Below are positions 15,261 through 55,425 of a stretch of 64,000 nt of DNA, in pieces. How positions within the stretch are numbered: the stretch's first letter is position 1; every line of letters begins with the position of its first letter. The DNA comes from Chloranthus sessilifolius. Its lineage: Eukaryota; Streptophyta; Magnoliopsida; Chloranthales; Chloranthaceae. The notes beneath the pieces were generated by a model. That model had not been told where the DNA came from and ran no database searches. It saw only the letters and a program-made list of their open reading frames with translations. The position numbers were made by a program, and so were the translations under genes. Location of the stretch: assembly GCA_021018995.1 (NCBI GenBank), contig CM037589.1, positions 61,702,101 to 61,766,100 of the forward strand, in the 5' to 3' direction.

Positions 15261-15326
<66 letters not shown>

Positions 15327-18300: not shown

Positions 18301-21300
18301 AATTATAGAATAGGGTTATAAGTGTGATTTCGATAATCGTAAAGGTCAGAGTTCGATTTCATAAAGGCATCGAAGTTCTAGTACTTTGTGTTTTCGAAGT
18401 GATCGCGTTGAATCGATGAAATGATATTTTTATATATATATCTAGTATACTATAATTAAATGCTCAAATAAAAAGGGGCAATGCAATTTAAAGTGGAGTA
18501 CATCACGACCATCGATCGGAAATGCAAGTGATTAATGTGCACTAAATTTTTGGTCGTACAATAGTAAAATTTTGGTGTGAATCAGGTCGTCTATTCGGAT
18601 GAAAATCGATCGATCGAAAAATGAAAATCGATAGATTAGATTTAATGAGGTGTAAGTTGTCATTTAGTTCAAGATCGATTGATTGGTTTTAATCAGTCGA
18701 CCCATCTATGGAAAGGAAACTAATTGAACTCTGACAGGGGATACTATTACTCATGTACCTTATAAGATAATTTTATAATATTAAAATAAGGTAGTAACTA
18801 AGTACTTTTATTTTATATGAGAATAAAATAATACTAAAATATAAGTGTATAATATTTATTAATTTTATATTACTATCTAAAATCACTTTCTCTTTAAATA
18901 TATCATCATATATTGTAAGAGATACTTTAATTAATTTAATATCATCCTATGAAATAAAATCAGATGAGTTAGTCCACATCAGATAGGTCAAAGTCTAACA
19001 TCAGATGTGTCGAGATCCACATCAGGTGGGTCACGGTCTGATACATCAGATGGGTCACGGTCCAACATCAAATGAGTTAAGAAGGGTACGAATTCGAAAT
19101 AAGGAATGACACCTTGCATGTGTCTTATAAGACAAAATTTTATTGCTTTATTTTTACAATAAAGTAGGTACTTAAGTAGAACAATTAGATAAAAATATAT
19201 TATTATATAACTGTAAGTTGTATAACACTTTATTATGTAATATTTTAATAGATATTTAGTTTAAGTTATAAGTGTTTATAATATAATATATTCTTATAAA
19301 AGCACAAGTTCTAATTAAATATTCACCCATAAAAATAGAACTCGACCAAATAAAGTAAAATAGAATCAGGCGATAGGTTGGAAATGAAAGAAACCCACGA
19401 AGTGTACGAGTTTTTATGGGCAATTGTCATTTATAGAAATAAACAATAAGAAGACAGTCACTTTTCTAGACATGAATATATTACTATTCTTATAATGTAA
19501 AAGATGCCATATTATAGCGGTTAAAAGGCAACACACAGATTACCTTCTAAATTTTAAGGCAATGTAACCAATTGAGTGAAACTAGCAATACATATAATAT
19601 AATAAAATCACATCAGTTGAAATGACAATAATGAAGAAGACTAATATATATAATATTCAATATAAAATAGCTATGCACCATTCAACCAAGTTAACCGACC
19701 GAACGGCAATATTAATTGGGTTTCCTGTTTTTACTCCAATTAAAATAATTAAGTTAAAAATAAAACAAGTAAGGTTTCGAAATAAATTAAATATATAAAT
19801 AAATAAATAATATCAGAACAAAGATAAATAACATCTTTCAATCCTAAATTAATATTATTTAGAAAAGAAAATAGGTTCTTTTTATTTAACCCGTCGATAC
19901 ATGATCGAACCGTATCCTACGCGACGGGATCTGAGAGGACGAGATGGATGGATGGGTACCCACCTCTTGAAGCGTGCTCGGCGAATTGACGGCGGTTAGG
20001 GCAATAGAGATCGGCGTCCACACGATGGGCCGTCCACGATTACACCGTCTTCACCTCGATTTGATGATAGAAAAATACCACGGTGGTTCTTGTGGAAGAA
20101 CACACAAGAGATTTAAAAGAGATTAGGGTGTTTTTAGAAAATGGTGGCTATAGAAGAAGATGGAGTGACGGCTAGGGTTTTTAAGAAGAATTCTTATAAT
20201 AATGATTTAGGTTCTCCGTAGCTTTCTTATTTATAATATATGGGCATTAATTCGGTGTTAAGCGGTCGCACTAAATAAGGGTGTATAGGCTTTTATTTCA
20301 AGGTTTAAAAAATAGAGGTTTAAACTCACGTAGTAAGATTTGATCCTTAGACCTCTTGTTTATAAGCACAACTTGTGTCAAATAAGGATAATTTTAAATA
20401 TAAAACCTTTTTGAAAAATCAAAATGCGTACTTTTTCAACTAGGATAGGTTCCGGTATGGAGCACTAACACCACGCTCTGTGCAAAACAAATCTAACACC
20501 ACAAATTCAGTTTTAAATTTTTTTGGGTCGTTACAATCTGTCACTCGAGCTCTCTCTCTCTCTATCCCTAACTCTATAGCTCTGTCTCTTCTTTTGTCAT
20601 TTTTTTTCAACAAACCCCCGCAGGAGGACCTCAATCTTGCCCCATATATTCTTCTCAGAAACCCTCTTCTCAAACTCACGTATCATCTCCCCCTTTCTAG
20701 CAAGCTCTTTTAATTTTGGAAAATTTTCCAAATCGACCCTGGCAGATTCACCTTTTCCGTCAGAGACCCTATAGTTTCACCTTTCCCATAACTGACCAGC
20801 TTTAAGCCGAGCCAGTTCCAACTAGCAGGAAAAGTCTCAAAGACCCCTTCTTACTTTTTTATCATTCTACATAGTTTAAAATTTTAACAATTACACTTTT
20901 TTATATATACGCGATGCGAAGCAACATCTATGCCGTTTGATTTGAATAGACAATCATTTTCTTTTTTAGGTTAAAGAGGCGATATCACTTTTTTTTCATG
21001 CCAATCTTTGGCACCATCGATTTTTATATTGTGACCTTCAAATCAGACGACATAGATGTTGATTCACATCGCTTAAATATAAAAAGGTGCAATTTTTAAA
21101 ATTTTAAACTATGTAGAACGATAAAAAGGGGTATTTGAGACTTTTTGTACTAGCTGGTCAGTTTGGTGAAAGGTGAAACTATAGGATCTCTGACAGAAAA
21201 GGTGTATCTGACAGGGTCGATTTGGGAAATTTTCCTTTAATTTTTAACATAATAAAATATTAATTTAAATGAACTTTTACTTAAATGCCTAATAAGCCCT

Positions 21301-22622
21301 TGGTATTATTGAATTATGTAATAGACCCTAATATCAACCAAAATGTCTAAATTGCTCTTTTAATTATTGAATTACTAGTAAACCTTATTATTCATATAAT
21401 TGGCTATGGGAGCCTTTGATTTATTAAATTACTTTTATACCCATTACAATCACCTATATGCCTCGGAAGCCTTTTTATTAATTAAATTATCATACATCCC
21501 CCATTTGAACCACTTAAATGTCCCAAACCCTCTTCTATGCATGGAATTACCAAAAGACTCCTTAATATGAAATGTAAAATCTTATACAAATGTTACCTCT
21601 CTAAAACAACTTTGAACATTCTGTATTAGGTGTTACATGAGAAGAGGAGCAAGAGCAAGAGAGGAAGAAGTAAGGCAAGAGGGGTGGTTTTCGAATTGAG
21701 AGGAGGTGGAGTATGCGTAGTGGAATGTAAGGTGACGATCGTGGCTTGTGGAGCATTGGGTAGTCCTGGTCTATTGAAGAGAAGTGGATTGAGGAATCCT
21801 AATATTGGAAAGCATCTCCATCTCCATCCAACGGTAATGGCGTGGGGCTACTTCCCTGCTCGCAGGGGCGGCGGTGAGGAAGAGAAGAGGAGCTACGAAG
21901 GGGGTATAATGACTGCGATGTGCACTGCAGTGGCTAATTTTAATACGACGGGATACGGGGCAGTGATACAAACGCCGGCATTGCACCCTGGCATGTTCTC
22001 AGTACTCATGCCATGGGTTTCAAGCTTCGATATGAAGGAGAGGATGAGCAGGTTCTCACGAACTGCCCACATTTTCGCCCTCGCCAGGGACAAAGGGTCG
22101 GGGACAGTAAACCATCCCTCCAATTCTCTGAGTTATGAATTGGATACGAAGACGGATGAGGTGAACCTGCAGAGTGGTGTGGAGAAGATGCTTAGGATTT
22201 TGGTTGCCGCTGGGGCTGAGGAGATAGGAACGCATCACCGACAAGGGTTGAGATTAAACGTGAAGCAAGCCAGCTCCCACGAGTTCGAGAGCTTCGTCAA
22301 GAGAGCTTCTGGGAGAAGATTGAGGAACGGGTCCACCCCAATTTGCTCAGCACATCAGATGGGTAGTTGTAGGATGGGGGTCGATTCTGAGACGTCGGTT
22401 GTTGATCAAAGGGCTGAGACGTGGGAGGTAGAGGACCTCTTTGTTGCCGATTCCAGCGTTTTTCCCACTGCTCTTGGGGTCAATCCCATGGTCACAGTTC
22501 AGGCCATTGCTTACTGCACTGCACAGACTCTGGTTCAAGTCCTCACAAGGAAGAAAGAAAGAAAGATAGATGATTTATTAATGATGAGTACCTTTGAATC
22601 CACCCACGCTGAAACACATTGA
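6855..22622 (+). CDS. FAO: long-chain fatty alcohol oxidase (GMC family), four exons
   Basis: FAD-dependent oxidase converting long-chain fatty alcohols to aldehydes with H2O2 release, an omega-oxidation step; plant members are membrane-bound. Exons 6855-7163, 7298-7567, 13192-14055 and 21630-22622 join in phase 0 with GT..AG introns into 811 codons without a stop. Domains: N-terminal region with SPRQMESL; hydrophobic stretches in exon 2; FAD dinucleotide motif VVIGSGSGGG near residue 284; GGGSAVNWS; GMC signature 2 (GALGSPGLLKRSGL, about 522-535); catalytic-region histidine in SAHQMGSCRMG (about 721); GVNPM (about 764). Plant relatives are usually around 740-760 residues. The excess is at the N-terminus and in a MITE-derived C-terminal tail. 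The ATG at 6855 is chosen because it follows the TATA box and 5' UTR-like tract. Introns of 5.6 and 7.6 kb are filled with transposons. Likely functional, although splicing across such introns is untested. Confidence 0.88.
7298..7567 (+). CDS. FAO: FAO exon 2 (codons 104-193)
   Basis: Acceptor GATCAG at 7292-7297, donor GGTAATT after CAG at 7567. It encodes VGGFLSVRLRHPSLILLRLV, LSTWYGTFMICG, FSEVSQQRREEIL and the hydrophobic run ending FFTQ. The hydrophobic segments are the likely membrane-associated part. The protein continues as FFTQ-VDEKNENPSW in exon 3, matching the family. Confidence 0.85.
7695..7790 (+). mobile_element. SINE fragment (3' half)
   Basis: AGAGGCCCGGGTACCCTA and ATTTATATCCTGTGCGGACC match the body of the full SINE at 38682-38899 (ATTTATATCCTGTGCTGACC). 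The tRNA-like head is missing. Confidence 0.45.
8019..8118. repeat. 53-bp tandem duplication
   Basis: Two copies of a unit containing CTCACCATTATATTCCCCTA and AAGATATCACAATCTCAA, differing at a few bases. Lies in FAO intron 2. Confidence 0.85.
8330..8630. mobile_element. MITE, family A
   Basis: Mirrored halves: GATCTTGAGATCATAGTCCT on the left and ACATGATCTCAAGGTCCC on the right, with ACGATCTCCATTG near the right end. More diverged than neighbouring copies. Confidence 0.55.
8704..9061. mobile_element. MITE, family A
   Basis: The left arm reads GAAACACATTGACTGCATTG and the right arm TGCAGTTAATGTGTTTCACA. The right terminus extends to AAACTTAAAGGTACTC, the mirror of the GAGTACCTTTAA end that the FAO-tail copy also shows. 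It lies directly behind the copy at 8330. Confidence 0.7.
10045..10385. mobile_element. MITE, family A
   Basis: The left arm has ATCATTGATTACTTTGAATC, AGATGATGAAGATTG and GGATCTTGAGATAATG. The right arm has ATGATCTCAAGATCCATTTT, CGATCTCCATT and CCAATCAATGATTTTG. Several small open frames on both strands here are products of the palindrome and are not genes. Confidence 0.65.
11740..12073. mobile_element. CCGAAACCG-word repeat, probable hAT-type remnant
   Basis: The left half is rich in GGACCGAAAC and AAACCGATT, and the right half is rich in the complementary CAGTTTCAG and TCGGTTAAC words. It ends CCGCACCCCT. The copy at 49621-50038 has the same composition and clear hAT-like ends, so this is probably a diverged member. 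No target duplication was found here. Confidence 0.4.
12077..12381. mobile_element. non-autonomous hAT-like element
   Basis: Starts CAGGGGCGTGGCCAAG and ends GTAGCTACGCCGCCAGTG; the reverse complement of the end, CACTGGCGGCGTAGCTAC, aligns with the start. It is flanked by CCCCTTCC (12069-12076) and CCCCTTGT (12382-12389), an 8-bp duplication with six matches. An internal repeat of about 90 bp is present (ATCTACATCATAGGTTTGG and TTCTACATCATAGATTTGG). It abuts the preceding repeat. Confidence 0.5.
12808..13108. mobile_element. MITE, family A
   Basis: The left arm CTGTTGACTGCTTTGAATTA is mirrored by AAAGGAGTCAACAG on the right, with GACATTGAGATCATGAG and GTGATCTCAAGATC inside. It ends about 80 bp before the FAO exon 3 acceptor. 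Confidence 0.65.
13192..14055 (+). CDS. FAO: FAO exon 3 (codons 194-481), FAD-binding core
   Basis: Acceptor TTCAG at 13187-13191; donor AAG/GTTTGT. It holds the GxGxxG FAD motif, LVLEKG, the GMC block STVGGGSAVNWS and the cysteine-rich HYCGWCCFGC typical of plant FAOs. The frame reads on after the donor into low-complexity Asn codons (from AATAAT repeats), which is intron, not protein. Confidence 0.9.
14461..14800. mobile_element. foldback MITE, family B, best copy
   Basis: The left arm AGAGCTACAACTTGCACATA, AGATTTGTACTGTGGCA is mirrored by TGCCACAGTACAAATCTCG and TAAGTTGTAGCTGTC on the right. The centre holds AGTCAAAGGCTATCATCTGA. Non-coding. Confidence 0.7.
15116..15263. mobile_element. 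CACTA-type MITE, 148 bp
   Basis: Ends CACTACAAAAAACAAGACTA and TAGTCTTAGTTTTTGTAGTG are inverted repeats. Inner GCAGCTAAAAACTGCCGC and GCGGCAGTTTTTTGGGAGC also mirror each other. Flanked by ATA on both sides, the 3-bp duplication expected for CACTA elements, although the right flank is a (TA)n run. Confidence 0.8.
15264..15322. repeat. (TA)n microsatellite abutting the CACTA MITE
   Basis: A pure AT run starting at the last base of the MITE. Open frames reading IYIYIY here are artefacts. Confidence 0.95.
16606..20535 (+). mobile_element. solo LTR, 3.93 kb, Ty3-gypsy (Del/Tekay-like)
   Basis: Starts TGTCACGACCCGAAA and ends TTTTTTGGGTCGTTACA, with inverted ends TGTCACGACCC/GGGTCGTTACA. Flanked by a perfect 5-bp duplication, ATCTG, at 16601-16605 and 20536-20540. 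No gag/pol frame, no second copy and no internal domain are seen, so it is best read as a solo LTR left by recombination. Del/Tekay chromoviruses are known for LTRs this long; that assignment is inference. A related remnant lies at 27158-35547. Confidence 0.8.
20718..21235. mobile_element. Mutator-like foldback element, 518 bp
   Basis: Terminal arms of roughly 200 bp: GGAAAATTTTCCAAATCGAC at the left and GTCGATTTGGGAAATTTTCC at the right. The mirror continues through TATAGTTTCACC/GGTGAAACTATA and CATAGTTTAAAATTT/AAATTTTAAACTATG. Flanked by a perfect 9-bp duplication TTTAATTTT (20709-20717 and 21236-21244), the length typical of Mutator-like elements. No transposase. Confidence 0.85.
21630..22622 (+). 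CDS. FAO: FAO exon 4 (codons 482-811), C-terminal GMC domain
   Basis: Acceptor GTATTAG at 21623-21629. It begins VLHEKRSKSKRGRSKARG, which joins to GCKALK of exon 3. It includes GMC signature 2 and the SAHQMGSCRMG and GVNPM motifs. The last 11 codons (STFESTHAETH) and the TGA lie in the terminal repeat of a family-A MITE that starts at about 22587. The ancestral C-terminus probably ended shortly after QVLTRKKERK. Confidence 0.88.
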   Translation: MLHEKRSKSKRGRSKARGVVFELRGGGVCVVECKVTIVACGALGSPGLLKRSGLRNPNIGKHLHLHPTVMAWGYFPARRGGGEEEKRSYEGGIMTAMCTAVANFNTTGYGAVIQTPALHPGMFSVLMPWVSSFDMKERMSRFSRTAHIFALARDKGSGTVNHPSNSLSYELDTKTDEVNLQSGVEKMLRILVAAGAEEIGTHHRQGLRLNVKQASSHEFESFVKRASGRRLRNGSTPICSAHQMGSCRMGVDSETSVVDQRAETWEVEDLFVADSSVFPTALGVNPMVTVQAIAYCTAQTLVQVLTRKKERKIDDLLMMSTFESTHAETH

Positions 22623-40987: not shown

Positions 40988-41516
40988 CACTACAAAAATA
41001 GTAACCTACGCCAACGGCTCCTCATTGCGCCAGAGTATCAAAGCCGTTTAAGAAAACAAATCGCCGACGCTTATAATATCTACGCCACATGACGACATCG
41101 TTAAGATTATTCTCGTCGGGGAATCTAACCACCGACGAGAATAGTACCGCGAGCAGCAAAACAAAACACGCGAGCAGCAAAAGAAAGGCCTAAGTTACTT
41201 GAATCGCCTGAGATTAGATAAACTCTAGTCTTGGCAGGATTAGGGCTTAGTTTGGGGGTTTCGATGGGAGTGGCGGAGGAGGAGAGAAGCTAGCTAGGGT
41301 TTCAGAGGGGAGTTCGGGAAAAGGGAGAAGGGTTTGAGTTCGTGAGAAGGGAGGTCTTTTGAAGGAAAAAAAAATGATTTATATAGGGCCCGACAAAGTG
41401 GGTCATGGGCGTTAAGTGGAGTGGCCGGGTTGGCTCTCGGGGTATGGCCCAAATCTTCCCCTACACCGACGGCTTCTAAATTTCCGCCGTCGGCGTATGC
41501 TATATTTTTTGTAGTG
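40988..41516. mobile_element. CACTA-type MITE, 529 bp, with gene-like interior
   Basis: The left end CACTACAAAAATAGTAACCT mirrors ATTTTTTGTAGTG on the right, with TACGCCAACGGC and GCCGTCGGCGTA just inside. Flanked by ATA on both sides (40985-40987 and 41517-41519). The interior (41210-41390) has CTAGGGTTTCAGAGG, GGGAGTGGCGGAGGAGGAGA and TGATTTATATAGGGCC, which look like captured promoter/5' UTR sequence; that is inference. Confidence 0.75.
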
Positions 41517-42275: not shown

Positions 42276-43199
42276 TCCAACGGTCAGAAATATGACTGTT
42301 GGAGCTTATTTGAATTTATATATTTTTCTTTTAAGCCTCCCTAAAGCTTATAAATAAGGAGTTCCTCTTCCTAATCCATACCACATCCATCCAAGGTATG
42401 ATTTGTATCTCTTTGGTCTTTTCTTTTGTAGTTTTCAGTGCTCTCTCTTTTTTTTTTTTTTTTTCTCTCTTTCTTTCTCAAAGCTTTGTTGATATTTTCT
42501 TTTACTCTATTTTATAGTTAACTAAGCAAGGAACTTCAATCTTCATTGACATTCCATTATTCTTCAAGCAAAGAGGGAAGAAGTCACTTCAAGAATCAAG
42601 GATTCAAGGATTCAAGAGTTAGAAATTAATTTATAATTTCTATTAAATTTTGTTTGATTATTTTTCCTCCTTATTACACTTCATTTCTTTCATTTTTTTT
42701 TCTTTTTTTAGTGTGGTCTTCACTCACTTCTTCAAATTATGTTATCATTATGTATACGTCCTCCAACAACGCTCTTCGGCCGACAAATTCGATCGATTTG
42801 GATTGAAAATATAGACATTATAAGAGTATAACTGAAAAAAAATAAAGTCCAATATACTCTATGCCCCTATGTGAGCATAGGGGGAATAGGGAGACACAAG
42901 CAACATCTTGTTTAACAACCTGGATCAAATGTGAAGACATGTCCAAATGTATCGTTGAAGATTTAAAAAGAGATTATAGAATAGATGGATAAGACACTAC
43001 GTCAAAATGATAAAAATACCACTTTTGCAAATATTAAAAGAGCCACTGCCCAAGCAGTAATATGCTAATCCACTGCCAAAATCGATTGTTTATTATATCA
43101 ACACAGTGGTTTAAGTCGTTCGTTAACTTGATTCCACGCCAAAATATAAATAGTGAAACCATTCAATTTCATTTTGCCTTTTTAACTCATTTAGAAAGA

Positions 43200-44374
43200 A
43201 TGCTGAGACCGCTCCTCCCTTCTCTCGCTCCATCTCCCACACTACAAAATAAATAGCTTTCAGAGCGCAGCGCCTCTCTCGTCTTCCTCTCTCCAGAATC
43301 GGGATTTGGGAGCTTCTGTTGATTAAAACCCTAAAAAATTTGTCAAATTAGGGTTGATTTTGCTAAGAGAAGTTGCCGTTTCGAATCAGTGTTGCTAGGT
43401 TTTCGATATCAATCGGTCCTGGTTTGGTGTGGAGTGTTTGTTGTTCGATTGACTAGATTGTGAGCTCGTTTTCTACAAGACCGAGCCAGTTATGTTTCGG
43501 ATTGGATTTGATCGGTGCCGTTAGATGTTGAATCTATGTCAATGGAAGTGTTTGAGATAGGGCTTGGGATCTGGATGTAAGCAATGTATCGTTCCTCGTA
43601 TGTTGCAAGTGGTCTTAGATTTGAATCGTCAAGGTGGGTTTGCTTCAGATTAATCAATTTTAATGCAAGTTAGGGTTTGTAATTTTCTTATTTTCTGCTT
43701 CAGACCAATCTGCTTTATCAGTTCTTAAGATCAAGTTAATATATCTTCTTTGTTTTACTTGATTTTGTCCATGATTCAATCGTTGGAGGATTGAATCTAC
43801 TAAAGCTAGGTTTTGTAATTTCCTTGCTTCTTGCTTCAGTTCGATGAGTTTGATACGTTCCTGAGCTCAAATTTGGGGGTTGCTTGGTTTGGCTAAAGAA
43901 TCTCACGAAGGAAATCACGGTTACGATTCAGATCGGGCTCTTTCTGTCTCAACACAGTTCGAGGCAAAAACTGTAATCTCTCTCTCTCTCTCTCTCTCTC
44001 TTGTTTTTAAAATAGATCTCGTTCAATTTTTACCTATTTATTTACTTTAATCAAGGTCTGATCTGCTTATTTTAGTTGCCATTTGTTTCTTTTTCATTTT
44101 TGGTTTGATAAATTGGCACCCATTCTGATGAACTTGTTTGATCCGCTGAAGTTGCCTCTTTATAGCTTTATAATACTAAGGATATTTAAAAAAAAAAAAA
44201 ATTGACACTCATTTTGTTGAATACATTTGATCCGCTTATGTGGTTGCCATTTTACAGATCTATAATAGCTCTATAATACTTTTTTTCTTACATTATAGAA
44301 GTTTGTTTGTTTTTTGATAAATTGGCACTCATTCTGTTGAACTTGTTTGATCCGCTTATGTAGTTATTATTTTA

Positions 44375-44432
<58 letters not shown>

Positions 44433-44500
44433 ATTTTACTTTCTGTGCTTTCTTATAAAAGCATATTTATATATGTACCGCCAATTCACCCAGTTGCCGA
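43200..44500 (+). promoter_or_regulatory. captured promoter/5' UTR-like region, probably of the CHR4-like gene
   Basis: AAAATAAATAGC at about 43245 resembles a TATA box. It is followed by CTCTCTCGTCTTCCTCTCTC and TTAAAACCCTAAAAAATTTG, typical of plant 5' UTRs, and possible leader introns. (CT)n lies at 43978-44001 and (CT)n(TA)n at 44380-44429. A diverged repeat (AAATTGGCACYCATTCTGWT..TTGATCCGCT) recurs at about 44110, 44200 and 44325. Assignment to CHR4 rests on position only. Confidence 0.35.
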
Positions 44501-45417
44501 ATATGCCCGAATCGGACTGAATCGAATGACGAATTGGTTCACTTTGAACCAATTCTCCATTGCACGGTGGGGGAGCGAATTAATTAAGATAGGTCCGTTG
44601 TCCAAATCTGAGGAGTTTCCCCCCTGGTTCATGACCCCCCGTTTGTGGATATTAGTATAACCATGCATATATTTATGTAGAATGTATTCATTTTATTATA
44701 AAGCTTTAGTCGTCATGCATTTTTTCGAGTAAGGTTTTAATCTGCTTTTCTTTAGTGTTGAAAATTAAGTTAATGGGTGAAGGTTAAAATCTTGGTATTG
44801 GTTTCTGTTTCGGATTTACCAGGACCGAGACGTATTGTTTTGGTTATCACTGATACAAACTTTGTACCTACGATACCTAGGAGATATCCAAGACGACATA
44901 CTTCTAGTGGGGGGCTTCGATACCGAGCATTATTGGGAGATACGTGGGGTAGATGTTGTCTCTCAAGTTTTATCAGTAGCAGAAATTTGGAATGGATGTG
45001 ATTGAATTCTGAATATTGGATTTTGATGGTGGTACTCGATTATTTTGAAAGAATTCAGGTTTTAGATTGCCACTTTCTGTTTTTTTTTCTTCCCTAACCT
45101 GTCCATCCACAAACTGTTTAGAGAACCACTTAATTTGTATACTTCTGCTCTTTGATCTAATTTGGACATTGTTTTATTTTGTATCGTCTTTTTATTCTCT
45201 CTAAATCAGTTTCTTGATTTTTCTTTTTCAAACATGTTCATAGTTGCTCCATATCGTTAAAAACTAGTTGGTTCAAAGTTTTAATAAATGTAATTGCTTC
45301 CTATGTATAGGGACTATTACCTGGATGCCCTTTCAATGGCTTGGTTGCTTGCTAATGGAAACTTTGGATTCCTGGTCCAAGTAATTCATGGATGTCATGC
45401 TTTCAAGCATTGTTTGT

Positions 45418-45596
45418 CATGAGCGTAGGACCAGGGATTCAAAGATGAAGGAAAAGGAAAATGGCTTGGTTCACGAAAAAATGATTGACCAGAATTGGGT
45501 CTTGAAACGTAAGCGGAAACTACTTTCATCTGGATCCGAACCATAGAATGGAGCAACATGTCTTGATCAGCACACAAGAAGAAAGGAAATGATGGG
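45418..45596 (+). pseudogene. CHR4-like chromatin remodeller, first coding exon fragment
   Basis: From ATG 45445: MKEKENGLVHEKMIDQNWVL then KRKRKLLSSGSEP and a TAG stop at 45544-45546. The block MI(D/N)(R/Q)NWVLKRKRRKLP is characteristic of the N-terminus of plant CHD3-type remodeller CHROMATIN REMODELING 4. The frame continues after the stop as NGATCLDQHTRRKEMM and meets a donor (GGG/GTGAGC, 45596). No PHD, chromo or SNF2 exons are in the window, so this is a fragment, broken by a nonsense change. Confidence 0.65.
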
Positions 45597-46760
45597 GTGA
45601 GCTCTTTATTTCTTTATTTTTTTTCTATACGCAAGGATAATTTTAATTTAAAAAGTTAAAGTGCTAAACAAGTAGGAGCAAAACAATTTCGTTATTCTTT
45701 ATTGCTAACTTCTTATTGTTATTTTAACTATTTGCAATAACTGGTGCATGCAATCCAAACCTTTCATACAATTTGAGTTATCGTTCCTTTTAGCTAAGAT
45801 CAGGTGTAGTGGAGTTATCTAGCTGCTGAGTTTATTTATTTTCCCTGAAAAGTTATGAATAATTCTATAAACTCTATTTTTATGGTTATTAATTGGGTCT
45901 TCTAGTTGAATGAATGCCCATGAACTTTTTGAATTAAGAGCGTCTGATATATCCATACCCTTTTCCCTTCTTGGATTGTTGAATTGTACCACCCCTGTTC
46001 AGTATGTCCTGAATTTCATTAAGCAGTATGGAATCTGTTGATGACTGAAGCTTTAAACTGGGAATTGTATGTTAGAGGTATCTCTAATGTTTTTATGTTG
46101 CTTGTTGTTTCCCTTCAATACTTCTATATATATTTTTTACAGTTCTTTTTAGTAACTCCTTTTTTTTACAATTATTTTTATGGTTGTCTGAAAAGACTGA
46201 TTCGATCGCAGATTTAGTCTTCATTAACTATAGCAGTATGGTTGTCTGAAAAGACTAAGATCACAACATTAATAATAATCTCATAACCAGTCTGAAAAGA
46301 TTGAGATTCACGGTAGGGAAGGAGACTCAAAAGTCTCAATTTTCACTCAGAAAAAATAGGGAGTCTCGATCACCTTTCTCTTTCTCAGAACTCTTATTTT
46401 ATTTCTCATGAAAAAAATTCATGGTCACATAAATTTTCTATCATTCTTAATATATAAAGAAAATAAAACTAACCTTCTATTCTGCAGAGTGACAAATTTC
46501 ATTTTCTGGAATTTTTCGGTGGGGGGTCCTTTCGGTACATTTCGGATTAATTTCGATACCTTTCGGAATTAAAAGTTAGTATGGTTGAGAAGTATCGATG
46601 TCTTACTAAGGGTCCTTACCCAACTTATATTCTGTTAGTACAAGTAGTCCTTCATTTTGAAGGATCAAACTATCATAGATTAGTATGCTCAACACATGTA
46701 GCTCCATGCATCGTCTCTATGTAATGCCAGAAAGTCTCTATCTTATAAAGCTTGATAAGT

Positions 46761-46823
46761 TTATAAGAGCATGAGCATTCTGTCTTATAAAGCTTGATAG
46801 ACAGAATGTTCATGCTCTTATAA
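46761..46823. repeat. short hairpin, 24-bp arms
   Basis: TTATAAGAGCATGAGCATTC-TGTC pairs with GACAGAATGTTCATGCTC-TTATAA around a 15-base loop, with one mismatch. A third, shorter version (GAGAATGCTCATGCTCTC) follows at about 46870. Confidence 0.75.
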
Positions 46824-47390
46824 ATCCAATATTGGAGCTAATTCTCTTAGCTACTGCATACTGGTACAGAGAGAATGCTCATGCTCTCAATGATGACTCG
46901 TTGATTGCCTTGTAGTTACTAAAAAATGATTCAATGGGAGTATAAAGGACTTCCCATGGATAGGTGCAGCTATCATGGGTTAGATTTTGTACGCCTTTCA
47001 AAATTGACGTTAGCTTCGTTAATGAGTTCACTTTAGTTAACAACAATTTTGGAGTTGAGGGTACGAGTTTGAAAAGTACTTACCCCTCCTATGTTAGGTC
47101 TTTCTATAACTTGTCGGGGCTCTTCCTGTCCCCTTCAATATCCTATGAGATTTGGCTATTCTAGCTCCTCCATGGATCTCATCCTCATGTTGGATTACCT
47201 TCCTTGATAAAATGATAAAATACACATATTGTGATCATTTGAGTAATGGTGGGATGACGACTCTTAGTTGTGTGTAATGTGCAAAGTGCAGTCAAGATAA
47301 GGTAATCCATCTGAGCCTGCATTATATGACTAGAATTGTTTGGTGTTTTATCGTTGAATTGTTCTGACCCTTAGGGTGGTATGGACTTTT

Positions 47391-47840
47391 TCAAGCATGT
47401 TGATGATCCTTTGGCAATTTGGGCACTACGGCCATTCGTACAGAAAGAGCAGTATCCAGGAAGATGTGTCCCAATCTTGGAAGAACCACTTTCATAATTT
47501 CATGAGATTGCAGGTTATCAAGCAAATATAAGAATCCACTCAATGTTGCGATCCTGACCTCCTTGCATGTGTCCTTTGACATGTCATCAACAATTTTGGA
47601 AAATATTTTTGTAATTGTTGGAGAAGGAATAACTGCCCAAAACAGACAAAGAATGCGGCAAGAGCCTTCCACAGCAACGACCCTCACATCAGGACAATCA
47701 TCTAAAACCATTTTTTCCAATAAAAAGAACTGTTTATCGAGCAAGGTATCTTGAACCTCCTTGTTGGCATCTGGATCTTCAAGGGGGAACATGTCTAAGA
47801 GTAAATGCAATGCATTTTGACGAACTTTTGAGTTTGTGAC
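47391..47840 (-). pseudogene. condensin-II subunit CAP-G2-like exon fragment
   Basis: Minus-strand exon with acceptor GGTGGCAG (47841-47848). It encodes VTNSKVRQNALHLLLDMFPL, then EDPDANKEVQDTLLDKQFFL, LDDCPDVRVVAVEGSCRIL, DTCKEVRIATLSGFLYLLDN and RLGHIFLDTALSVRMAVV. These are HEAT-repeat segments of the plant condensin-2 G2 subunit, which compacts mitotic chromosomes in the full gene. After VRMAVV the frame degenerates (PKLPKDHQHA, stop). One exon of a large multi-exon gene, in reverse orientation to the other captured pieces; non-functional here. Confidence 0.75.
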
Positions 47841-48674
47841 CTGCCACCAAGATTAGAAACAGAAAAGGACATTGTCATTGTTTGAATCATACGATAAGTT
47901 AGTTTGCTAGTCAACCCATAGATAACAATCCACAGTTTCTGTAAATGCAAGTCACTTAGGCTTTCACTCGCGGAACATCAGTTTTGGAGTAACCAATTAA
48001 GCCAAATAGAGTCTGTTGAAACATAAATAGCATAAACTGCAAGGAGTATCCAACATTCTTATGATTATAGTAGGCAAGCATATGACCAATTATGAAATTT
48101 TTGAGAATAATATGCTTTCCAACTGATATGTGCTTCGAGAATCAAGCACTTCCTAACGCACACAGCCAAGTCACCGACGAACTTCACTTAGAAATGAAGA
48201 TCCCGACAAAAGACCAACAGCAAATTGGAACATTTTCTCTCCCCCTTCCCCAAGCTCTCCTCTCTTTTTTTGATGGGTTAATCACTCTGTTTTCATTTCA
48301 GAAATGATTAACGCATGTCATAAGACCAAAGATCAATGTCGCAAATGAAATGAAACCTACGTGAGTCTGTGTTAACCAGCAACTTTTTTTGGTTAACAGC
48401 TATTTTATTGATTAAAAGAAAGGAACATTGACCACCATTTTTGGGTCAATTATGCAATGCAATTTACTCACTAGGAAATCTCTTCTTCAGTGCACCAAAG
48501 CTACTACAATGGCCTGAGATTCTCCTTTGTATCTGATGTTTGAACGAACCACTAAACCATTTTAATATGAAGTAACTCCCATCAATCCCCTAAAAAACAT
48601 TGATGCTATCATGTGTCAAGTTTTGCACTGCAAGACAAACTCACAACCCAACATTTAACAGGACAGAGAATGGG

Positions 48675-48765
48675 TCAAAATCTCGGTTTTCCGGTACATA
48701 TCGTCCAGCTCCAAAACTGATACGTATTGTCCGATACGTATTGATTAAAATATGATGACGTAAAT
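48675..48765. repeat. GATACGTAT-word patch
   Basis: CGGTACATATCGTCC, TGATACGTATTGTCCGATAC; same word family as 40740-40855. Confidence 0.5.
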
Positions 48766-49204
48766 GATTTGACTCATGGATTTAGCCTATGGAGGACTGT
48801 TCGAGGCAATTATAGATTTATTTTTTAAAGGTTTTTTGTGTTTTTTCTAGTTTATTTGGAACCTTATCGAGCCTATCCTGTGGCTGCATGTTAGCCATCT
48901 GTTACTGGAATGCATAGCAGCTGTTTGTGAATTTGTCGGGGCGACATAGTGACCATGCGCCAATATGCTTGGGCTACATATTGTTTGTGATCTTTGGCTG
49001 GTTATGCCAATATCTGGTGGCCGTAGTGAGAGATTTTTGGTGCAAATTTTTTTAGTTATGTGTGTTGTTTGATAAAGCGAGAATCATTGTGTTGGAATCA
49101 GAATTTGTGCTATATTAGTTTGGTGGAACAGTTTTTTGAGAGCATTGATTGCAAAGATGTCTAGTACTGCCTTCTACTGTTATGTCTGCTTGTGCTACTA
49201 GAGC

Positions 49205-49545
49205 ATCACCACCTCCTTGACGTTGTTATTGATTTAGGGTCTACAAATCATATGATAACTTCAGGTTTATTCATTGTATACTCCACCATCCTCTTCTACG
49301 CAGATTCGCTTAGTTAATGGCTCTTCTACCTCTGCTGTCGGGGTGGGGATTATTCATGTGTCTTTCTCACATTCTTTATCACATATCTTACATGTTTCCC
49401 AGCTTAATCTTCTTTTAGTTAGTAGTATAGATAAAATATTGCATTGTTTTGTTACTTTTTATCCTTCTCATTGTGTTTAACAAGATCTCATTATAAAAAT
49501 TACTATTGTTCATCCATCTTTCTCACGTGTTCAGCCTTCTTTATA
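49205..49545 (+). pseudogene. copia protease/GAG-pre-integrase fragment
   Basis: Translation IDLGSTNHMITSGLFIVYSP then TQIRLVNGSSTSAVGVGIIH, SLSHILHVSQLNLLLVSSID and CFVTFYPSHCV*QDLIIK matches the copia region from the protease active site (here DLGST for DSGAT) to the pre-integrase domain. It has an in-frame stop and a mutated active site and is cut at both ends. Same strand as most of the captured pieces. Confidence 0.7.
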
Positions 49546-49620
49546 GCAGCAACAACTCAACAAGTCATTTTCTTATTGTAATAATGAGAACTAATTACAT
49601 GAAAACAAATCAAGTGTGAT

Positions 49621-50038
49621 TAGGCGTGTAAGTTTTGAACCGAAAATTGATATCGACCGAAAAATTGGCCTAACTGAACCAAATTGAAACTGGACTGAAA
49701 CCGATTCCAATTGGTTTGGTTTCGGTTTTGAGTGGCCAAACTGAAAACTGGTTAAATAGGCTTGGAAAATCGACCCAAAAACTGAAAACCCGTAAAATAG
49801 AAGAAAAAACCTCAAAACCAAAAGTGAACTGATCTATTTGGGTTTCGATTCTTTTGAGAAAATGGTTAATTGAAACTGAAACTGAATCATTTTGGTTCGT
49901 TTTTTGGGTTTTGGTTCTTTTGAGAACAAGGTTAATTGATACTGAAATCGAATCATTTCAGTTCGATTTCAGTTTAGGCTTAACCGAACTGACAATTCCG
50001 ATTTCTATTTGGTTCAGTTAACGGAATCTGCACCCCTA
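49621..50038. mobile_element. hAT-like MITE (CCGAAACC family), 418 bp
   Basis: Ends TAGGCGTGTAAG and CTGCACCCCTA. Flanked by AGTGTGAT (49613-49620) and AGTGGGAT (50039-50046), an 8-bp duplication with one mismatch. The interior is a mirror of AAACCGATTCC, AACTGAAACTGAA and CGGTTTTGAG words. Best-defined member of the CCGAACC word family in the window. Confidence 0.75.
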
Positions 50039-50107
50039 AGTGGGATGCAGGATGATTGTTAATTATCAACAAGCAATGTGCATTTGTACGGCCTTTTTAT
50101 AGAGAGT

Positions 50108-50200
50108 ACATTTAATTTCACCCACCGAATCTTTGAGTTCACCCACGCTGAAACTCATTGACTGATTTGGTGGGTGTGGGGTGGATTTAAAGGTACTTAC
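50108..50200. mobile_element. family-A MITE reduced to its two ends
   Basis: TTTGAGTTCACCCACGCTGA and ACTCATTGACT (left end) run straight into GGTGGATTTAAAGGTACT (right end). The rest of the 320-bp hairpin is missing. Its left end matches the copy that supplies the FAO tail. Confidence 0.6.
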
Positions 50201-50387
50201 ATTTATTAAGAATCTCCATCTGAGATGAAAATGCCTTGAGTATCTTTATTAAGAATCTCCAAACTTAATTAAAATTTTGGAAAAACTTTCGGATCTAATA
50301 GCTAATCTATTGAACTTTTGGACGAATATTATGTTGATCAGATTCCTCTGTAATGTTGAAATCGTCATTTTGTGATTTGATAGTTTA

Positions 50388-50390
<3 letters not shown>

Positions 50391-50448
<58 letters not shown>
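50391..50448. repeat. (TA)n microsatellite
   Basis: Uninterrupted TA run, just before the DUF639-like exons. Confidence 0.95.
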
Positions 50449-50452
<4 letters not shown>

Positions 50453-50550
50453 TCCAGGTATTGCTAGCTTCCCCTCCTTCACCAGCCTACCCATGACATG
50501 CTTCCAGCTTGTTTTCTTCTGAAAGTGGCTTACTTTGTCTGCTTTATCAG

Positions 50551-50746
50551 GAAGGCTATGATTCAGGACGGAGGGCTTTGGCCTGTAGCACAATGGAAGG
50601 TTTGACAAAATTGCATCGGGTGCTCGTAAGTTTTTCTGTAGTTTTCATTTTTAAAATTGCTTTAGTACTTATGTTACTTTTAATGTGGCAGGAAGACAAA
50701 CTACTGAGAAATCTGATATTGCTAAAAAGAAGGCAAAGCTACAAAG
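50551..50746 (+). pseudogene. two candidate exons of a DUF639-like gene
   Basis: Exon a, 50551-50625: acceptor TTTATCAG, donor GTAAGT; reads EGYDSGRRALACSTMEGLTK-LHRVL. Exon b, 50692-50746: acceptor GTGGCAG, donor GTGAGT; in one frame reads GRQTTEKSDIAKKKAKLQR. Splice borders are good and both fit the C-terminal half of plant DUF639 proteins as I remember them. The phases of a and b do not obviously agree, so one may be wrong. Confidence 0.35.
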
Positions 50747-50964
50747 GTGAGTTTACACATTATTATATTAAGAATTAATAGTGATGTAAACTACTTACAA
50801 TTGAAGAAACAATCATTATTTTAAGAATTAATAGTGATGTTTCCGTCCAAGAATTTTGATTCCTGCAATAGCCGAATCCTGAAGGCTGAAGCAGGTTTTG
50901 CAGCTTCTGGATGTTGCCCTTTTTTTAAAGGGCAGGAAGCAGGTGGGAACATGGTATCAAGTAC

Positions 50965-51065
50965 TGTCTGATACCGCTATGTATCGGCGATACATATTAG
51001 TTTCTTGCCAAATCAATACCGATACCGATACCATATCGACACTAGTATTGGCAGGACAGTATCAA
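50965..51065. repeat. GATACCGATACC-word patch
   Basis: TGATACCGCTATGTATCGGC and CCGATACCGATACCATATCG. Same word family as 40740-40855. Confidence 0.55.
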
Positions 51066-51519
51066 CCAATACTGTCATTTATTTAGTTATGTATAGTTTT
51101 TCTTCGTCACAAAAAAGAAGTATCAACCAATACTGTCATTTATTTTGTTACTTGGAGTCTATGTTACACTATGACTCTTTTTAGAACTTATTCTATTTAG
51201 GATTAACAGCTGCCGAGACAGTTTATGTGGTTTGAATTTTATGTTTGAAAGACCAGTTCAATTTTTTTACAGGAATATAGAAGTTTTTTTTCTCTCTCTT
51301 GCTGCTCCTTAGCTGTGACATGCTGCTCCTTAGCTGGGACATGAGATATCAATCTCACCCATTGAAGCCCTCGGGTTTCTCCGGGATTCTGAACCCCCTA
51401 GTTCTCTGTGAAAATTGCTGCTGCTGCCATATTGTTTTATGTTGCTGATCTTCTTTTATATTCTATTTATCTGTTGCTGCTATCTATCTCCGGTATGAGG
51501 AGTGTTATTATTCGTAAAG

Positions 51520-52017
51520 ACCCTCTACTGGAACTGCAAGGAGCCTGGGCATATGGCTAGTCAGTGTACTAATGATCCCATTTGCCACACCTGTGGCAAG
51601 ACAGGTCACCTGGCCCGTGAGTGCTCTGATTCGGGTGACACCCGACTCTGCAACAACTGCTACAAGCAAGGCCACATCGCAGCCGACTGCACCAATGACA
51701 GGGCATGCAACAACTGTCGCAAGACTGGCCACATTGCCCATGACTGCCCCAATGACCCTGTCTGCAACATATGCAATGTCTCAGGCCACGTGGCCCGCCA
51801 GTGCCCCAAGACTTCATCTGGCATTGGATTTGGTCTGGCATCAGAGATTGCTGGTGGACCCTTCCGTGACGTTGTGTGCCGCATGTGCAACCAGCCAGGC
51901 CACATCAGCCGAGACTGCGTTGGCATTGTCATCTGCAACAACTGTGGCGGGCGTGGACACTTGGCTTACGAGTGCCCCTCAGGCCGTATGGTTGACCATG
52001 GGCCCCGCAGGTTTTGA
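51520..52017 (+). CDS. CCHC zinc-knuckle protein (GIS2/HEXBP/CNBP-like), 5'-truncated
   Basis: An open frame of 165 codons after acceptor CGTAAAG at 51513-51519. Seven CX2CX4HX4C knuckles: CHTCGKTGHLAREC, CNNCYKQGHIAADC, CNNCRKTGHIAHDC, CNICNVSGHVARQC, CRMCNQPGHISRDC and CNNCGGRGHLAYEC are intact. The first, YWNCKEPGHMASQC, has Tyr in place of its first Cys. The C-terminus ...YECPSGRMVDHGPRRF is the family's normal end. Plant relatives bind single-stranded nucleic acid and have one or two more knuckles and an RS-rich N-terminus in upstream exons. I find neither those nor an ATG. It lies between DUF639-like exons inside the CACTA element. The frame is uninterrupted, so the capture is recent or still constrained. 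Confidence 0.7.
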   Translation, partial: TLYWNCKEPGHMASQCTNDPICHTCGKTGHLARECSDSGDTRLCNNCYKQGHIAADCTNDRACNNCRKTGHIAHDCPNDPVCNICNVSGHVARQCPKTSSGIGFGLASEIAGGPFRDVVCRMCNQPGHISRDCVGIVICNNCGGRGHLAYECPSGRMVDHGPRRF

Positions 52018-52021
52018 TTTT

Positions 52022-52919
52022 TGGATCTCACCTTTGAGTATAATATTTGGCTTTTAGAAATGGTAAGTTTACATTGGCGATTTCTTTTTGAATCATGCAT
52101 TTAGATTGACGCCTCAGATGATTGAATCAATGGTGGAGTTATCATTTTGCTGTTTATCTATTGGCAGAGCCAGGATTTTCTTCCAAAGGAGGGAAGGATA
52201 TGATTGATAGGGCAAATGAGTTAGTATGAGGCAAGTGGCACAAGCTCTAGTGACTCAATTCCTTTGAAGTGAGCTCTAATAATACAATCTGAGCCCTAAT
52301 TCCTTCATATTGTTAGAGATAACATTGCCACATTCGAATAACACTACATTGTTCAAATTTAACCACACAACAATTGGGCTGGGTTTATTTGGAGGTGTGA
52401 AGCTGACAAGTGTCAACAGGCATGAGCAAGAGGTGTAGACTAGTGTGTTTAATTGGACAACAAGTGTGTGGTGTGAAGCTGACCTGTGCTTTCTACAAAA
52501 CTGCTCCAAGTCAGGAGACTCATTTCTAACAGTTTAATCTACAGCAACACTTATCTTCACCATTGACCATTCTTGAGTTGGAAGTTCATTTGCACTGTCA
52601 TTTTTTTATACCGAGGGGACTTGAGATCGCTCTCCTCTTCTTCTTAAGGTAAATTGTATACTTGGATTTCTTACTTTATATTATTTTATTTAATAACAGT
52701 GACAAAATTAAAGAAAATAGCACCCTCAACAATGGGGTCAAAATGGCTATCTTATTGGCATATTTTTTTTCCCTACAAATGAAGGACATCAATGGGGTCA
52801 AAAGGTACAGTTTTCACTGATGTATAAAGTGATGGCTGATGTATAAAGTGATGGCTATCTTATTGGCATATTTTTCCCTTCTGCTTGTAGTATATGTTGT
52901 GTTTGACTGATATCTTGAA

Positions 52920-52920
<1 letters not shown>
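52022..52920. other. 3' flank of the zinc-knuckle ORF; nothing else recognised
   Basis: AATGGTAAGTTTAC at about 52058 could be a 3' UTR intron donor. A duplicated phrase, AATGGGGTCAAAATGGCTAT and ATCTTATTGGCATATTTTT, recurs around 52730-52875. Minus frames here have no domain. Confidence 0.4.

Positions 52921-52921
<1 letters not shown>

Positions 52922-52989
<68 letters not shown>
52922..52989. repeat. (TA)n microsatellite
   Basis: Long TA run 90 bp before the DUF639-like exon at 53079. Confidence 0.95.
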
Positions 52990-52995
<6 letters not shown>

Positions 52996-53078
52996 TCTTT
53001 GCTGCATTCATTATATTCAAATCTTATATATTTTGATGGGTAAATTAATTGAATACTGTCTATTTTGTCACCTCACAG

Positions 53079-53632
53079 GAACTTATGCTTCCTTTTACTG
53101 TTATTGCCAAGAAATTTGACAAACTTCGGTACTGGGAGGAGCCCCAATGGACTCCCTCTTTTCTTGCATTTTCCTATAATGTGATCTTCAGGTAAGCGTA
53201 GTCAATACTTTCATGATAAAGTTAGAGCCGTTGAACATAATTTAAAAGAAAAACTTGGCATTTTGGTAGTGGTGGACGAAGGATTTTCTTGAAACGCGGC
53301 ACCCTATAGTCGATAGATGTTAAATTATTTTATCATATTTATTTTTATTAATAATTCTAAGATAAATGAAAAGCAATTTTTACTAAAATGTTTTGCTCGT
53401 AAAGCGAGGGTAACACCATTTAGCACCACTTGATACATTCGAGTGAGATATACTTGACAATGGAGATCATTTTTTTCCATTCCAATCTTCCACAATGCAG
53501 AGCACATGTGGCTCCTACACTGAGTAGCTCCTTAGCCTAGACACTCACACAACTTGTCGAATTACTTTTATTTTTATTTATACAGGGATTTATTTTGTAT
53601 ATTTTCTCTAATGATATGCTGTTATCTATACA
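53079..53632 (+). pseudogene. DUF639-like C-terminal exons
   Basis: Exon c, 53079-53191: acceptor CCTCACAG, donor CAG/GTAAGC; reads ELMLPFTVIAKKFDKLRYWE then EPQWTPSFLAFSYNVIFR. Exon d, from 53586: acceptor TATACAG; completes the Arg codon and reads DLFCIFSLMICCYLYR before a stop (TGA at 53638). The WEEP motif followed by a hydrophobic F(L/A)xFxYxxIFR segment matches the membrane-proximal end of plant DUF639 proteins. The join is in phase. The family end normally continues well past this point, so the fragment is truncated. Confidence 0.5.
53450..53525. mobile_element. family-A MITE fragment
   Basis: TTGACAATGGAGATCATTTT and CCAATCTTCCACAATG only; no mirrored arm. Confidence 0.35.
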
Positions 53633-54127
53633 GAATTTGAGCAAGGATACTAAGGACATGTTTCAAATGATTTTTCAAATAAGGATCTTATTATTGTTTT
53701 TTCTCTTTGCCGAACCTTGCCAAATCATTGCCAAACTCCAAAAGTTGGTCCTAGATGTTGTATGGTCTATACTATTCAATATTCTACTCAAACTGTTGTC
53801 GTCATTTCATTTAGAAATCTCATGATTCCCTGGAAGCTTCGTGATAGAGAGCTTAATAGTCTGATTTTTTTATGCTGATCGTATGAGCTCTCTTGCATCT
53901 TGCTGGTTTTGGAAACTAACATCTTGAACAAAATTGTAAGGCTCTGTCAGTTTAGAATCCCTATAATCAGGTTTATTAGATTCATATGGTGTTATTGTCC
54001 TGTTTGTATCTGTTGAAATCTCTAATTTTGAATATTTTATCTCGTGTCATAATTGCAAGCATCCCTATTGCCAAAAATGCATTAGAATAGTTTATCTGAG
54101 AATTTCTCCTACAGGCTCACAGTGTAA

Positions 54128-54400
54128 TTGCTGCCCTCAACTGTACAGAGGTATGATAAGAAACTAGCCACATGTCATGGTAGCATGCTATTATTGAATG
54201 GGAGAAAATCGCTCATGCACTCATCATTCCCTAACTTGCTGGCTTACTTTATGTTAATGTTCCATTGCCCATTAAATGTGATAAAGAGTTTTGAGACACT
54301 TGGAAGGCAATTTCTATGGAGTGGAGGAAGGCCTACAAGGAAGTATCATCTAGTAAAATGGATGTATTGAGATTCCTAAGAAGAATGGAGGCTTCTAAGC
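54128..54400 (+). pseudogene. LINE (L1-type) reverse transcriptase C-terminal fragment
   Basis: LPSTVQRYDKKLATCHGSML then LLNGRKSLMHSSFPNLLAYF, FHCPLNVIKSFETLGRQFLW and RPTRKYHLVKW fit the plant L1 region after the RT core. The frame shifts and then reads CIEIPKKNGGF, also LINE-like. Cut at both ends and frameshifted. Confidence 0.7.
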
Positions 54401-54554
54401 ACAGACTTTCGGAAACAAGTAGACGGGGTTGAATTATTACAAAAGGTGGTTTTACTATTTCAATTCTCGTATGTAAGAGACACTTCAAATTTCTGAAGGC
54501 CATTATTAACTTAGATATATAATTGTTTAATATCATAAATATTTAATTACGTTC

Positions 54555-55035
54555 TCCTTTTGATTTCAGGCAAAACTTTTCGATTTGAAGCCCACTTCAA
54601 ACGGATCACTAGGGGACGGGGATATTTGGCAGGAGAGGCGAAGCATATATATATATTTTTAATTATGAAACTAGGTCATGGGGTCCTTAGATTGTTAACT
54701 CTTTTTTTTTTTTTTGGAATAAAAGGATTGAGCATGTAAAGTTTAAAATATTTGGTTGATTTGAAAGGTTGGATCATAGGTTGAAATGCAATATTTTGTT
54801 TGAATAAAAGAATTTGGCATTTATTTTATTTATGGATGTGCTTGAATATGAGATTAATAGCTTTTTTTCTTTATATATATTTTTTTAAAGCATTAAAAAT
54901 TACATTAAAAAAAAGTATTACAAAAAGCATAAAAAATATTGCATTAAAAAAAAGCATAAAAAAAATATTATTTTAAAAAAATTTGCATAAAAAATTGTCG
55001 ACGTAATTTTTTTTAAAAAAAATTTTGCATAAAAA
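54555..55035. other. AT-rich DNA near the right end of the CACTA element
   Basis: Poly(T) tract at 54702-54714 and a stretch of GCATAAAAAA / ATTAAAAAAA words (54885-55030) that may be degenerate subterminal repeats. No gene. Confidence 0.4.
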
Positions 55036-55165
55036 ATCGCCTAAGCAGTTGTAAAAAGGAGGTGGTTTTTTACCACTATACAAGATGCTGGTTTATGAAC
55101 TTCATAAACCAGCATGCGTATAGTGGTAAAAAACCACTCCTTTTTACAATTGTTTAGGCGAGTTT
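55036..55165. repeat. 130-bp hairpin in the CACTA subterminal region
   Basis: GTTGTAAAAAGGAGGTGGTT and TTTTACCACTATAC pair with GTATAGTGGTAAAA and AACCACTCCTTTTTACAA; the apex is ATGCTGGTTTATGAACTTCA-TAAACCAGCAT. Nearly perfect stem of about 60 bp. Confidence 0.85.
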
Positions 55166-55228
55166 TTGAAAAACCAACCAAAGAACCACTATTTAAGGCA
55201 GTGGTTTTTTGGGCTTTTTCACGTAGTG

Positions 55229-55425
55229 AGATTTGAAAGTCGAAACATAACGACGAAGTGATTTTACAACAATACTATGATGTTGATGAAGATGAAGAAC
55301 ATGATAAATCTACTCCCTCCACGGCTCGTAGTGGTGCAAGACCACCACCCTCTAAAAGAACACATTGTGGAAATTTATATTTTCCCTTTTACTTAAATAA
55401 TATTTTTCTTCTTTAGCTTTTCCTT
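55229..55425 (+). pseudogene. possible hAT transposase C-terminal tail
   Basis: The frame EVILQQYYDVDEDEEHDKST then PSTARSGARPPPSKRTH ends at a TAG near 55416, followed by AATAAAATTTACATTTTCC (55473), which could be a poly(A) signal. Acidic tails like this occur in plant hAT transposases, and the position at the 3' end of the second hAT fits. The catalytic and dimerisation domains are absent. Confidence 0.35.

Follow-up and report, generated by a model that had tools for sequence, protein, structure and literature searches.

A 12.2-kb stretch with CACTA-type ends on C6 of Chloranthus sessilifolius raises the question of how one transposable element comes to hold pieces of several host genes. 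We analysed it within a 64-kb stretch of DNA (C6:61702101-61766100, referred to as the window in the rest of the text), and a previous sequence-only reading had proposed that the element itself captured pieces of at least four genes. We find that its blocks occur separately in a sibling element on C6 (c6b), in elements of a second CACTA family (B), in an element on C9 that carries a GIS2-type piece (the C9 element) and in elements with a DUF639 piece, so that the window element reads as a mosaic. With a probability of roughly 80%, it is a non-autonomous Pack-CACTA element made of earlier gene-carrying elements that were joined by nesting or adjacency.

The window element spans 42995-55228 (12,234 bp), begins with CACTACGTC, ends with CACGTAGTG and is bordered by AGA at 42992-42994 and 55229-55231. 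Within the 64 kb, CACTACGT and ACGTAGTG occur once apiece. We searched the species' own genome (2.17 Gb, 32 contigs) with both ends and with the flanks; the resulting counts refer to the best-scoring candidates and are not a census. All of the best 40 of 582 candidates matched the first 301 bases (query position 6 being 42995), the window itself included; 38 of these 40 began at query positions 1-6 and 37 stopped at 235-251, i.e. at 43224-43240, so that the loci share roughly 246 bp at their 5′ ends. For the last 305 bases (query position 300 being 55228), 38 of 40 main matches stopped at positions 299-305, and 40 extra matches corresponded to a palindrome on the opposite strand (best 40 of 1857 candidates). 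When the flanks were fused with a single AGA, each of the best 40 of 533 candidates aligned from query position 1 to at least 257, past the junction at 155, with 85-88% identity. Since these empty-site matches cross the junction, the 12,234-bp unit was inserted into a single member of a repeat family, with AGA as the target-site duplication. The 12.2-kb stretch is one inserted CACTA-type unit; on this point the family ends and empty sites bear out the sequence-only reading. The same reading had placed the insertion within a hAT element: the host sequence is indeed a member of a repeat family, but the hAT label was not confirmed, as each of the seven candidate pairs of terminal inverted repeats (TIRs) and target-site duplications found by script around the insertion had at least three mismatches.

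The window element has CACTA termini with an inverted copy at the opposite end, and the motif CCACT/AGTGG is concentrated there, with 9 copies in the two terminal 250-bp stretches compared to 16 in the 11.7-kb interior. We refer to the family defined by these ends as A. Its 5′ terminal region (CACTACGTCAAAATG.., with subterminal CCACT/AGTGG repeats) lies at 42995-43239 on the forward strand and was delimited by the 5′-end matches and the repeats, while its 3′ terminal region (54517-55228, forward strand), delimited by sibling comparison and the 3′-end matches, includes an imperfect 137-bp palindrome at 55031-55167. Most scored 3′ ends hold inverted matches resembling this palindrome. As claimed before, no transposase was recognised: no transposase model was hit in a Pfam scan of 29 of the 76 stop-to-stop open reading frames (ORFs) of at least 50 amino acids and of one 38-amino-acid exon.

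Elements with the same ends and different cargo, which the sequence-only reading had proposed to look for, were found. Eight 5′-end loci including the window's own were cut out, and 10-20 kb were fetched around the other seven. A 3-bp target-site duplication is present in 5 of 5 siblings whose two ends were both read: c6b (C6:91794307-91805356, 11,050 bp, duplication CCT, loci L009/L010), c4 (9,273 bp, TCT), c2 (4,608 bp, CCA), c12 (8,454 bp, TGG, with one substitution in its 5′ end, CACTATGT) and the C9 element (C9:70950495-70958974, 8,480 bp, AGA), which came from the GIS2 search. The 3′ ends of c11, c1 and c7 lie beyond the stretch read. The siblings combine identical ends with differing cargo. 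The most informative is c6b, which consists of window 42995-48157, then different cargo, then the family-A 3′ end; it carries a TPI exon (PDB 6cg9, E = 6.9×10−13; Pfam TIM, E = 6×10−4, just under the cut-off) and a B-box-like exon (E = 0.006, under the cut-off). Nine other sibling ORFs were compared with Pfam, of which seven had no credible match and two were a Vps35-like stretch of c1 (E = 1.5×10−3, under the cut-off) and the CAP-G2 piece of c6b. Just inside the 5′ ends of c4, c12 and c11 (L011, L019, L013) lies an ORF starting MAQPLMKKDDDRDD (M(A/S)QPL(M/V)KKDDDRD..), with a variant in c1 (L017), which we take to be the start or first exon of coatomer gamma. The CHR4-like exon block of the window element is likewise close to the 5′ end, and first exons in that position may be a habit of family A.

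From the left, the window element is made up of a family-A 5′ end, a part of a family-B element with the CHR4-like exon, a CAP-G2 piece, the interior of a GIS2-type family-A element and the 3′ part of a DUF639-type family-A element. The first junction lies at 43240, where CACTACAAAATAAATAG stands directly behind the family-A end. Comparison with c6b, L037 and L038 identifies 43240-43263 (forward strand) as the remnant of the 5′ terminus of family B (CACTACAAAATAAATAGCTTTCAG): a near-identical B start opens the elements in L037 and L038 beside unrelated flanks and is followed there by window 43261 onwards. In L005 and L008, which are A copies without B, the sequence diverges at the point of 43240, and c6b has 164 bp after the remnant that are missing from the window element. 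B is therefore a CACTA family distinct from A, its 5′ terminus remaining legible at 43240, and insertion of B into A explains this junction best.

The multi-copy family-B 5′ region that follows (43264-45419, forward strand) is UTR- or intron-like, with tandem and CT/TA repeats. It leads into a gene piece with a first coding exon (45420-46475, forward strand, based on L041; ATG at 45445, stop at 45544-45546), which we label CHR4-like, a label that is unconfirmed. A candidate donor at C9:88.245 Mb is identical at 96.6% of aligned sites and has a Ser codon in place of the stop at 45544-45546, the frame being open there. The next stretch (46476-47106) is without counterpart in this donor, reflecting an insertion in the window or a loss in the donor, and reaches 47102 in a family-B element; a second stretch of the donor then follows (47107-47308, forward strand, 98% of aligned sites). 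L038 and L043 reach window 47102, thereby including the CHR4-like exon and excluding CAP-G2. The name CHR4 is unproven: in a protein search with region 160-216 of a 1500-residue frame, none of 36 candidates reached E≤10, and no CHD was seen by eye among the donor-locus ORFs.

The piece of CAP-G2 (condensin II subunit G2) lies on the reverse strand at 47428-48739 and comprises a partial exon (47428-47852) and the upstream intron; it matched PDB 9f5w_G with E = 2.5×10−17. Its likely parent, one of six genome candidates, is at C1:16.94 Mb and is 95.4% identical over 47428-48739, with long open frames adjoining the match on the same strand. A second exon of the parent locus gave nothing against PDB at 0.01; the name CAP-G2 for this locus is based on its agreement with the piece (95%) and on the PDB match of the piece. 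Apart from the parent, the piece was located in just two places, the window element and c6b, and it may be a direct capture from the gene. Its homology stops at 48739, while GIS2-type homology starts at 48738.

The interior of a GIS2-type family-A element, as defined by the C9 element, occupies 48738-51518 (forward strand) and includes a Copia-like fragment at about 49259-49477 (Pfam Pol_BBD, E = 0.001, under the cut-off). By eye, a hAT-type miniature element seems to be nested at about 49622-50038, its 8-bp flanks nearly matching (AGTGTGAT/AGTGGGAT). The GIS2/HEXBP-like piece itself (51516-52165, forward strand, running from mid-exon to 3′ flank) contains an ORF at 51499-52017 with seven CCHC knuckles in seven stretches (Pfam E = 1.4×10−38); its best protein match, at 73%, is unnamed and the best named one, at 70%, is from Vitis vinifera (99 matches). 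The likely parent at C2:159753170-159753819 is 99.4% identical over window 51516-52165. In the 3.65 kb of this gene that were read, the exon extends upstream of the captured part to a splice acceptor, and the capture therefore starts mid-exon; it stops beyond the stop codon. The following stretch, 52166-52488 (forward strand), is common to GIS2-type elements and, with CHG neighbourhoods masked, 100% identical to the C9 element. The order in the C9 element is homology to 48738-51518, about 2.5 kb of extra sequence and then 51528-52488; the extra sequence, absent from the window element, mostly matches introns of the GIS2 gene. Six loci hold the GIS2 piece with an identical 3′ junction.

The last cargo block (52611-54516, forward strand, gapped) is the interior of a DUF639-type element and includes an exon at 53079-53192 with both splice borders. 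This exon of 38 amino acids matched PF04842 with E = 6.3×10−8 and 32.8 bits, under the cut-off of 37.1. Among the best 40 of 133 candidates, the exon block occurs at 92-99% identity at 18 or more other loci, among which the donor gene was not distinguished. On C8, C5 and C14 the block lies within elements that also hold the family-A 3′ region, with the order kept, and an element at C6:142 Mb has 53499-55228 in common with the window; 52611-53223 was compared with the C8 element only. Positions 53200-53495 are not part of the DUF639-type elements and separately match five other loci.

The classification as a non-autonomous Pack-CACTA element that carries parts of several host genes is supported, as is the earlier claim of capture at the DNA level. 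Of the genes that the sequence-only reading had named, CAP-G2 (by PDB), DUF639 (under the cut-off) and the seven-knuckle CCHC protein stand and CHR4 is unconfirmed; likely or candidate parents lie elsewhere, as anticipated, for CAP-G2 (C1), GIS2 (C2) and the CHR4-like piece (C9), and for DUF639 no donor was singled out. Splice borders, said to be kept, are so in the DUF639 exon and partly in CAP-G2, but not, by eye, in the CCHC piece with its mid-exon start.

Comparison of copies required attention to CHG sites. Between the window element and c6b (43263-48157), 42 of 75 difference events lie near a CAG/CTG of the window element, compared to 19% expected at random places; CAG/CTG sites number 107 in the window element and 77 in c6b, and ATG/CAT sites 191 and 195. 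At the 3′ end, 2 of 20 difference events between these two elements lie near CAG/CTG. The lesions (L023-L028 and L009/L010 against window 43263-52165) are clustered small indels and substitutions specific to each copy, and the GIS2 piece and its C9 copy are 90.0% identical over all sites and 99.5% when CHG-masked. Raw copy identities were rejected as a measure of divergence because this clustering inflates it. Judging from the sequences, the lesions probably reflect miscalled nanopore bases where CHG sites are methylated and the repeats unpolished, a reading for which we recognised no direct precedent in the paper listings searched; the copies would then probably be much younger than raw identities imply, and the window copy would be either well polished or little methylated. 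With CHG neighbourhoods masked, the window element agrees with c6b at 99.4-99.6% as far as 48157 and with the C9 element at 98.9-100% across 48738-52488; for the C8 DUF639-type element the figure is 98.6-99.3% in 52872-53223 and 53732-54516.

How were the blocks joined? Gene-carrying elements may have landed inside or next to one another, their inner ends would then have been lost through deletion, and the outermost A ends could have been mobilised as a single unit by a transposase from elsewhere in the genome. Such joining would yield new exon combinations, with no gene needing a fresh capture. A possible but clearly less probable course is interrupted gap repair, in which, after excision, synthesis begins on a sister element or donor gene as template and switches to another at short matches. 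The overlaps at three junctions are short (11 nt at 47428-47438, 2 nt at 48738-48739 and 3 nt at 51516-51518) and suit end joining or switching, both limits of the GIS2 piece are at non-splice positions, and c6b has one swapped interior between flanks in common with the window. However, a B terminus directly behind the A end at 43240 fits insertion better than copying, and the majority of blocks come from mobile elements and not from random DNA.

That one element took the four genes successively from the genes themselves is very improbable, even though the GIS2 piece is so close to its gene and CAP-G2 may have been captured directly. The window element differs from the GIS2 parent at four sites, and three of these differences, two of which are adjacent, are common to all six other aligned element copies, which argues for one capture that was then inherited; furthermore, the GIS2, DUF639 and CHR4-like blocks each sit in other elements without the remainder. 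Least credible of all, and refuted by the results, is that the ends are paired by chance around gene debris and ordinary nested repeats, or that the arrangement is ancestral synteny: eight-base TIRs are short and 1 of 300 first-order Markov sequences produced a similar pair of ends within 25 kb whose 3-bp flanks matched, but boundaries fall at the same bases genome-wide, empty sites are continuous at all 40 loci scored, and the likely donors on C1, C2 and C9 exclude ancestral synteny.

Several observations weigh against a mosaic formed by nesting or adjacency. Joins other than that at 43240 could stem from template switching in repair. The DUF639-type elements are collinear with the window element only with gaps, the one on C8 having about 1.5 kb in place of window 53224-53495. 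The 3′ end is just 94-96% identical (CHG-masked) to c6b, the C8 DUF639-type element and the C9 element, and hence no donor is pinned for the very 3′ end. In ORF lists of the CHR4-like donor locus and 8 kb downstream, gone through by eye with no domain search run, PHD and helicase exons were, like CHD exons, not seen. The TIRs match over just 8 bp, and in c4 another 3′-end-like stretch, with unmatched flanks, follows later at 11584. Neither an autonomous family-A element nor a transposase was found, a genome-wide search for them not having been made.

The proposed origin of the window element by joining of older elements bears on a broader idea, which we advance tentatively: gene-carrying CACTA elements might swap cargo blocks across families, A ends repeatedly acquiring B and A interiors. 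If so, a few captured exons could recombine into many orders without new capture, and the window element, whose blocks come from two CACTA families and from three or more other element types, would be one product of a continuing exchange of cassettes. Whether DNA transposons acquire gene pieces by fusion of neighbours or by repair-linked copying is still argued, and junctions resolved to the base, blocks traced to elements, two likely parent genes and a retained foreign terminus make these models testable on one genome. In the open-licence papers searched, we noticed no Pack-CACTA reported to combine parts of two CACTA families. Pack-CACTA and Pack-TYPE elements were reportedly the subject of a 2019 study by Catoni.

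The exact gene combination may well be undescribed, as the sequence-only reading had it, but the kind of element is not: multi-gene Pack-CACTA elements and neighbour fusion are already published (PMC1947982, PMC8903248), and the window element is unusual in being traceable. The soybean CACTA element Tgm-Express1 carries five unrelated host gene fragments (PMC1947982) and, like the window element, partly keeps exons and introns. It is 5.7 kb long, lies in an F3H intron and has known transcripts, whereas the window element is 12.2 kb long, lies in a repeat, is known from sequence alone and has blocks traced to several elements and two CACTA families. Pack-CACTA and Pack-TYPE elements of Arabidopsis, rice and maize likewise have shared ends and multi-locus cargo, bigger elements hold more loci, and maize Pack-CACTAs hold many loci, with the most distinct loci per element (PMC8903248). 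There is evidence that neighbouring insertions of Pack elements fuse (PMC8903248, PMC13317346); the fusions detailed in the text involve PIF and Mariner elements that are short and belong to a single family, with CACTA examples in the supplement (PMC8903248), whereas the window element joins long gene-bearing elements, one of them from a different CACTA family with its terminus kept. Chenopodium CACTA elements also hold captured gene fragments within their ends, in the cases considered here upstream of a transposase-associated domain that was not recognised in the window element (PMC8978399).

Rfam at gathering thresholds gave no match in the window. A separate 529-bp CACTA-like miniature element with CACTACAAAAATAG.. 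ends and ATA on both sides lies at 40988-41516. At 13165-22622, two long ORFs look by eye like exons from a gene for a long-chain alcohol oxidase (GMC oxidoreductase).

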